From the IMG/VR virus record IMGVR_UViG_3300010160_000059, positions 1 to 53,372 of that record: a stretch of 53,372 nt of DNA. One strand, written 5' to 3'. Shown one piece after another: positions 491 through 739 of the stretch. The position numbers and the translations under genes were made by a program. The notes beneath the pieces were generated by a model that was not told the origin of the DNA, did no database searches, and was given only the letters and a program-made list of their open reading frames with translations. The number at the start of each line of letters is the position of its first letter. Position 1 is the first letter of the stretch. Source of the DNA: a virus.

Positions 491-739
491 GTTATTTTCT
501 GTTACGAGGTATAACTACCCTAAGCGGCGTTTAGGCTGCTAATGCGAACTGTGAGTCGTTTGCGTTTACTTGTTTTGCTTGATTAACGGTCATCGCCTAC
601 CGTGTTGCCGTCGCCACTATCTAGTCCAATCGATCCTGTGTCATCCCCACCTAAATATACCTTATACACTTAGGTGGAGATGCCGGGCACTGCCCCCGGG
701 TCTTGGTCTCCTTCGTTTTGAAGGGATTACAACAATAAC
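491..739 (-). ncRNA. ssrA: Circularly permuted (two-piece) tmRNA
   Basis: tmRNA rescues ribosomes stalled on broken mRNA by adding a degradation tag. Here the minus strand carries the parts in permuted order. The acceptor piece comes first (739 down to about 673), with a T-arm-like hairpin (683-700, 5-bp stem, 7-nt loop GGCAGTG) and a 3' strand CATCTCC (682-676) followed by discriminator A and CC. A short intervening hairpin follows, then the coding piece starts at 648 with GGGGATG, which pairs with CATCTCC as a 7-bp acceptor stem including one G-U. The tag frame 563-531 encodes ANDSQFALAA then TAA, preceded by the usual GTAAAC context. A PK1-like stem (586-590 with 599-603) lies upstream of the tag, and a P2-like pairing joins 623-629 with 703-709 apart from an A-A mismatch. 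Ends are approximate. The region after the tag is short, so pseudoknots PK2-4 are reduced or absent. No smpB is in the window. Confidence 0.88.
649..672 (-). other. Intervening segment between tmRNA acceptor and coding pieces
   Basis: This 24-nt spacer separates the two mature pieces. Its ends are complementary to each other and continue the acceptor stem: together, minus-strand 682-670 and 657-645 form about 13 bp with one G-U wobble around a loop of roughly 12 nt. It is the expected processing hairpin removed from permuted tmRNA precursors. The base after the encoded CC is T rather than A, so the final A of the CCA tail would have to be added after processing. Confidence 0.75.

Follow-up and report, generated by a model that had tools for sequence, protein, structure and literature searches.

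A complete circularly permuted tmRNA of probable mosaic origin on a T4-like phage contig

The minus strand of a T4-like phage contig carries, at about positions 735 to 467, a complete circularly permuted tmRNA gene with a 7-bp acceptor stem, a G3:U70 pair, and the tag ANDSQFALAA. We consider it likely that this is the phage's own permuted tmRNA, made as a late unit, and that the gene is a mosaic in which an alphaproteobacterial-type elbow is joined to a pseudoknot (PK1) and a tag that lean toward the betaproteobacterial type. The contig, hereafter called the window, is a linear IMG/VR virus record of 53,372 bases (IMGVR_UViG_3300010160_000059) and is probably a fragment. On balance, and with less assurance, we also favor a wider picture in which aquatic T4-like phages hold their permuted tmRNAs as recombining modules, the tRNA-like domain (TLD) being a cassette swapped among alpha, beta, and UG types and the discarded spacer hosting small genes in relatives; the window would then be the case with an empty 24-nt spacer and an alpha-type elbow.

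The original prediction of a permuted tmRNA on the minus strand, read from the letters alone, is borne out by full-length cmscan matches to two Rfam covariance models. The betaproteobacterial model beta_tmRNA (RF01850) matches at 787 to 465, minus strand (model positions 1 to 331 of 331; 160.6 bits, E value of 1e-49; curated cut-off, 84 bits), and tmRNA_permuted (RF04321) matches at 734 to 531, minus strand (1 to 213 of 213; 135.2 bits, E value of 2.1e-26; cut-off, 47 bits). On the whole gene, the alphaproteobacterial model alpha_tmRNA (RF01849) reaches 91.6 bits, which is over its cut-off of 50 bits but far below the beta score. The sequence features that define RF04321 are present, namely, the score, the permuted order with a spacer, the acceptor stem with G3:U70 and A73-CC, and an open tag frame that runs from the resume codon to a stop and has a hydrophobic tail end. 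For RF01850, the score is sufficient and the cellular beta elbow (UUCGAYU with GGUUUCGA) is absent. For RF01849, the GGCRGUA-like elbow with AGGAUCGA is found, the last T-loop base being G and not A, and the alpha-type PK1 and the ANDN tag are absent (-54.3 and -29.0 bits, respectively, in the scoring described below). The one-piece order of RF00023, with the tag between the acceptor 5' strand and the T-arm, does not fit the permuted order of the window. Folding of positions 740 to 481 gave a z score of -3.65, and none of 200 shuffles was equally stable. ARAGORN, when run on the window, missed the tmRNA at this locus, most likely because the T-loop GGCAGUG is not UUCGA-like. The two covariance models, the phage context, and about 100 relatives support a phage-encoded, circularly permuted, complete tmRNA, which judging from its sequence is probably functional.

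In the direction of transcription, the locus opens with a T4-type late promoter motif, GATAAATA, found at 750 to 743 by a motif scan of the window. The acceptor piece begins with the strand UUGUUGUAAUCCC (735 to 723), whose helix partner is GGCAAC at 609 to 604 in the RF01850 and RF04321 alignments. It continues with the T-arm CCGGG-GGCAGUG-CCCGG (699 to 683), in which reference comparison identifies an alphaproteobacterial-type T-loop, and with the acceptor 3' strand CAUCUCC plus A73-CC (682 to 673; covariance alignments and coordinates). A U comes next, which leaves the final A of CCA unencoded. The intervening segment of 24 nt (672 to 649), placed by these coordinates, is expected to be discarded in maturation and coincides with the cut site originally proposed; the same spacer length is found in four relatives (L014, L075, L127, and L352). 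The coding piece starts at 648 with the acceptor 5' strand GGGGAUG (648 to 642 in the covariance alignments), in which G3 pairs with U70. As had been described, the acceptor piece with its T-arm precedes the tag piece, and GGGGAUG and CAUCUCC form a 7-bp stem in permuted order. The D-loop ACACAGGAUCGAUU (641 to 628) is of the alphaproteobacterial type by reference comparison, with A18 matched to G55. Upstream of the tag, a putative PK1 has a 5-bp stem, ACGGU-AGGCGAUG-ACCGU (603 to 586), which appears betaproteobacterial-like in alignments and reference scoring. The tag frame GCA AAC GAC TCA CAG TTC GCA TTA GCA GCC TAA (563 to 531) encodes ANDSQFALAA and a stop, and both the complete tag and the PK1-like stem agree with the first reading. 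The region 3' of the tag (530 to 491) had been regarded as unusually reduced; it is in fact ordinary for a beta-type permuted tmRNA, because the RF01850 match extends to the last model position (331 of 331). An intrinsic terminator hairpin, AGAAAGCACC-UUCG-GGUGCUUUCU, with a U run after it, closes the locus at 490 to 467.

The gene content of the contig is T4-like and includes ribonucleotide reductase subunits, an exonuclease, an endolysin-like peptidase, and baseplate wedge and tail fiber proteins. NrdA has its nearest relatives in Xanthomonas phage X1 and Menderavirus (54 to 60% identity), and a tail-fiber-like protein resembles cyanophage and marine-virus proteins. The coding strand of the window has 15 copies of ATAAATA, the core motif of T4-type late promoters, and the opposite strand has 4. 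Of the 15, 10 fall in the 80 nt before a listed ORF start, and another (750 to 743) precedes the tmRNA. With this motif in front and the terminator behind it, the tmRNA looks like a late unit of its own. A sigma-70-like match at 870 to 842 (11/12) is of a kind as frequent as in shuffles (3 found versus 3.4 expected), and no riboswitch was reported by Rfam in the window. At positions 1 to 230, an alanine-rich low-complexity frame on the minus strand, with a start near 232, apparently runs off the contig end.

The elbow of the window, in which the T-loop GGCAGUG stands with the D-loop CAGGAUCGA, is of the alphaproteobacterial type. An alpha-type (GG) elbow is present in all 27 cellular permuted tmRNA references from alphaproteobacteria, and UUCGAYU with GGUUUCGA is present in all 26 from betaproteobacteria. 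The Rfam alpha consensus contains GGCgGUA with AGGAUCGACG; therefore, the elbow as such is not new. The elbow type had been overlooked in the original prediction. In a set of 93 phage tmRNAs, chosen among the matches listed by their tag and with the elbow ignored, three T-loop classes occur: U54-U55 with G18 (39 tmRNAs), U54-G55 with A18 (37 tmRNAs), and G54-G55 and G58 with A18 (17 tmRNAs). In all 93 of these 93, the class at position 18 matches that at position 55, position 18 being taken as the base just 5' of the G in front of the conserved D-loop CGA. A second set, selected by a GG T-loop, has A18 in 53 of 56. One-piece tmRNAs from cellular contigs of Saccharibacteria, Elusimicrobia, and other phyla (L148 to L264) also combine an AG D-loop with a noncanonical (UG or GG) T-loop, in a pattern scan biased to G55, and they show the same 18/55 covariation as the phages. 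By analogy with tRNA structure, pairs 54/58 and 18/55 may make equivalent contacts in noncanonical elbows. Searches of openly accessible papers retrieved no description of D-loop/T-loop covariation in two-piece tmRNA. Decay or sequencing error as the source of the odd T-loop was rejected, since its class recurs in 17 of the 93 tag-found phage tmRNAs listed and is the alphaproteobacterial norm; the idea that it belongs to phages alone was likewise rejected, because the Rfam alpha consensus carries it and one-piece tmRNAs of other phyla have it as well.

Each part of the gene was given a column-wise score relative to the 27 alpha and 26 beta cellular references, positive values pointing toward alpha and negative values toward beta. 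The T-arm of the window scores +37.3 bits (alpha references, 36.6 to 46.3; beta references, -48.6 to -27.5), and the acceptor plus D-loop score +22.2 bits (alpha references, 18.9 to 38.0). Helix plus PK1 score -54.3 bits (beta references, -137 to -114; alpha references, +110 to +145) and the tag part scores -29.0 bits, on the beta side, with the PK1 and tag values well short of the beta references. The body lies far from every cellular beta reference, so that "beta-type" denotes a leaning and not close kinship; in a clade test on a short stretch of the body, grouping with alpha was not rejected (p-AU of 0.67). Comparison from phage to phage gives stronger support for mosaic structure than such clade tests on short stretches.

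Two related contigs, L127 and L130, are 79 to 80% identical to the window at the nucleotide level in neighboring genes, and the tmRNA of L130 directly adjoins a 241-bp stretch shared with the window. Both keep the PK1 module GGTAGGCGATGACC, and their elbows are UUC (L127) and UG (L130). PK1 module A, which the window carries, turns up with each of the three elbow classes (2, 7, and 5 tmRNAs). The tmRNA of L014 is 92% identical to that of the window over 243 nt in a contig with no further match to the window, which indicates that the gene moves between phages. From PK1 onward, L075 and L014 agree at 201 of 201 positions. L075 also agrees with L130 at 25 of 25 positions in helix 2 and with the window and L014 at 20 of 20 positions in the acceptor and D-loop; its elbow block is flanked on both sides by L130-like helix-2 strands. 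Parent assignment in L075 switches 11 times over 175 informative sites versus 52 times in shuffles, and 0 of 10,000 shuffles was as low. Its sequence makes L075 a clear intragenic recombinant, and the relatives together suggest that phages recombine tmRNA in modules. Permutation sets the T-arm, the acceptor stem, and the D-loop side by side, so that one exchange could swap the tRNA-like domain as a block between phages, and such a cassette exchange would be the route to the elbow of the window.

We infer that recombination, and not convergence, is the source of the window elbow. In the convergent account, a beta-type phage tmRNA would have shifted stepwise, from G18-U55 to A18-G55 and then from U54-A58 to G54-G58, with no alpha donor. 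This is possible in principle, given that UG and GG elbows with A18 exist in the one-piece tmRNAs of Saccharibacteria, Elusimicrobia, and others; moreover, the UG class of phages looks intermediate, and L127 joins a UUC elbow to the 24-nt spacer and PK1 module seen in the window. However, the T-stem, T-loop, and D-loop of the window jointly fall within the range of scores of the alpha references, L075 shows intragenic recombination directly, and relatives differ by whole classes with no mixed forms (93 of 93 listed), which leaves convergence a rather unlikely but serious alternative.

Acquisition of the whole gene from one host that already had a hybrid tmRNA appears improbable. In its favor, the sampling covered only part of bacterial diversity; against it, all 27 alpha references have the alpha elbow with their own PK1, and all 26 beta references have the UUC elbow. 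Among 399 genomes sampled from the order to which G276 belongs (Burkholderiales, to judge by beta-model matches), a single one shows the pattern ANDxQFALAA, and it lies there in a one-piece tmRNA; the relatives, in addition, recombine among phages. The original suggestion of a trait captured from the host probably does not hold in its simple one-host form: the elbow is alpha-type, the body leans toward beta, and phage tmRNAs recombine with each other in relatives. Phage tmRNAs are usually treated as carried host genes; here the gene seems to spread among phages and to be rebuilt from parts.

By what is established for trans-translation, ribosomes stalled on cut mRNAs would be freed during infection and the protein fragments tagged for proteolysis. 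In the mosaic model, the T4-like phage would transcribe the permuted tmRNA as a separate late unit, and the precursor would fold with its acceptor strands paired across the 24-nt loop. Host RNases would remove this loop and host enzymes would complete CCA, after which host AlaRS (recognizing G3:U70), EF-Tu, and SmpB could work with the two-piece RNA in releasing stalled ribosomes, and ANDSQFALAA would be added to proteins for host proteolysis. Pairwise comparison of the tag ORFs of relatives chosen by T-loop gave 265 single-base codon differences that are synonymous and 44 that are not, the pairs not being independent; 86% of differences are thus synonymous, versus 23% expected under neutrality, and this excess speaks for a translated tag. 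A search of 40 related phage contigs, which reach 353 kb in length, revealed no SmpB gene, and host SmpB is presumably used.

The need for host SmpB also fits a decoy that sequesters this protein and rescues no ribosomes, the way in which the TLD-only RNA of mycobacteriophage DS6A has been suggested to act (PMC4131195); the tag frame here is nonetheless complete and under selection, whereas the DS6A RNA is little more than a TLD, which makes a decoy highly improbable. Hardly credible is a nonfunctional remnant, such as the attachment-site copy of an integrating phage: tmRNA genes are common integration sites and the T-loop departs from the usual motif, but the gene is complete with promoter motif and terminator, the tag is under purifying selection in relatives, the contig has T4-like content with no integrase among 19 ORFs tested, and the T-loop class is common to 17 of the 93 tag-found phage tmRNAs listed.

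The phage-encoded permuted copy is real, as first proposed, but not new as a kind. The Methylophilales phage Melnitz, which infects an OM43 clade host, encodes a two-piece tmRNA, and among 133 distinct phage tmRNA structures obtained with ARAGORN from 18,146 genomes, 53 are two-piece, and marine or aquatic samples account for 50 of these (PMC9004378); a 2025 tmRNA database holds 79 phage sequences (PMC11915505). What is new here is the combination of hybrid elbow and body. The degenerate tag pattern ANDxQFALAA alone hits at least 120 viral contigs, and most of those listed are called permuted by ARAGORN; about 100 phage permuted tmRNAs were found among the viral-contig matches listed, and several more in cultured phages. 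The window tmRNA itself had no nucleotide match in isolate phages, and cultured relatives were reached via the other elbow classes.

Compared with the betaproteobacterial permuted tmRNA (RF01850), the window shares the gene order, full length, PK1 and flanks, short 3' region, and ANDxxFALAA-like tag, and differs in the elbow, which is GGCAGUG with CAGGAUCGA in place of UUCGAYU with GGUUUCGA. With the alphaproteobacterial form (RF01849) it has the T-arm and D-loop type in common, whereas PK1, the tag (ANDN type in alpha), and the 3' part differ and the whole-gene score is far below that of the beta model. Like Melnitz and the 53 isolate two-piece tmRNAs, it is phage-encoded and permuted, these being mostly aquatic; Melnitz, however, is described as alpha-related and linked to a glutamine riboswitch, whereas the window tmRNA is a hybrid without an Rfam riboswitch (PMC9004378). 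Stenotrophomonas phages Bhz51 and Marzo (Menderavirus), Xanthomonas phage X1, and Synechococcus phage BUCT-ZZ01 resemble the window in having permuted tmRNAs over the RF04321 cut-off, which in Menderavirus and X1 lie in the same region as nrdA. Unlike the window, Bhz51, Marzo, and BUCT-ZZ01 have UUC elbows, and the tags assigned by ARAGORN in the four phages (VAANDDSYTVRIAA, VAANDADYSVARYA, ANDETFSMALAA) are different. At the Menderavirus tmRNA place, the Marzo and Bhz51 deposits annotate a tmRNA, and several others (IME-SM1, Mendera, YB07, and Moby) annotate a tRNA-Leu or nothing.

Cultured phages with permuted tmRNA exist for testing. The elbow changes in coordinated steps (A18 with G55, G54 with G58) and the protein partners presumably remain those of the host, which makes these genes a natural experiment on the elbow geometries accepted by SmpB, EF-Tu, and the ribosome. 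The ease with which the TLD becomes movable in one piece suggests why permutation may persist in phages.

The spacer of the window is 24 nt long and contains no gene. Spacers measure 6 to 59 nt in cellular references and up to 383 nt in phages, and 18 of 121 distinct phage spacers of at least 60 nt contain an ORF of at least 40 amino acids (3.9 expected from shuffles; maximum, 9). These ORFs mostly begin 10 to 13 nt past ACC and end at the last spacer bases before the coding piece. Phage spacers often house a small protein gene, as in L044, L109, L289, L359, L324, L010, L037, L016, L364, L316, L048, L046, L058, L060, L083, L096, L047, L061, and others; in relatives, spacer genes appear, on balance, to have their own ribosome-binding sites. 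Pfam matches of spacer ORFs include DUF2061 (3.5e-20), a family represented in the spacer of L044, and CxxCxxCC (1e-5), and an Oxidored-like match (4e-12) was obtained for a translated spacer frame whose start codon is not established; shorter ORFs resemble single-span membrane peptides, and several products are hydrophobic with a single span. PHROGs gave no match for the spacer ORFs, and searches of openly accessible papers found none that describes ORFs in a two-piece tmRNA spacer. T-arm-like stretches (GGTTCGATTCC) in the spacers of L115, L136, L143, L351, and L032 have the look of tRNA remnants. Nested tRNA genes were rejected as a general feature of spacers, as ARAGORN called a tRNA-Arg in L098 only. 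In many cases the two ends of a spacer form a helix (median, 10 bp) that lengthens the acceptor stem, for example, in L323 and L047; the Shine-Dalgarno sequence of the spacer ORF then lies inside the extended stem, an arrangement that could regulate translation of the ORF.
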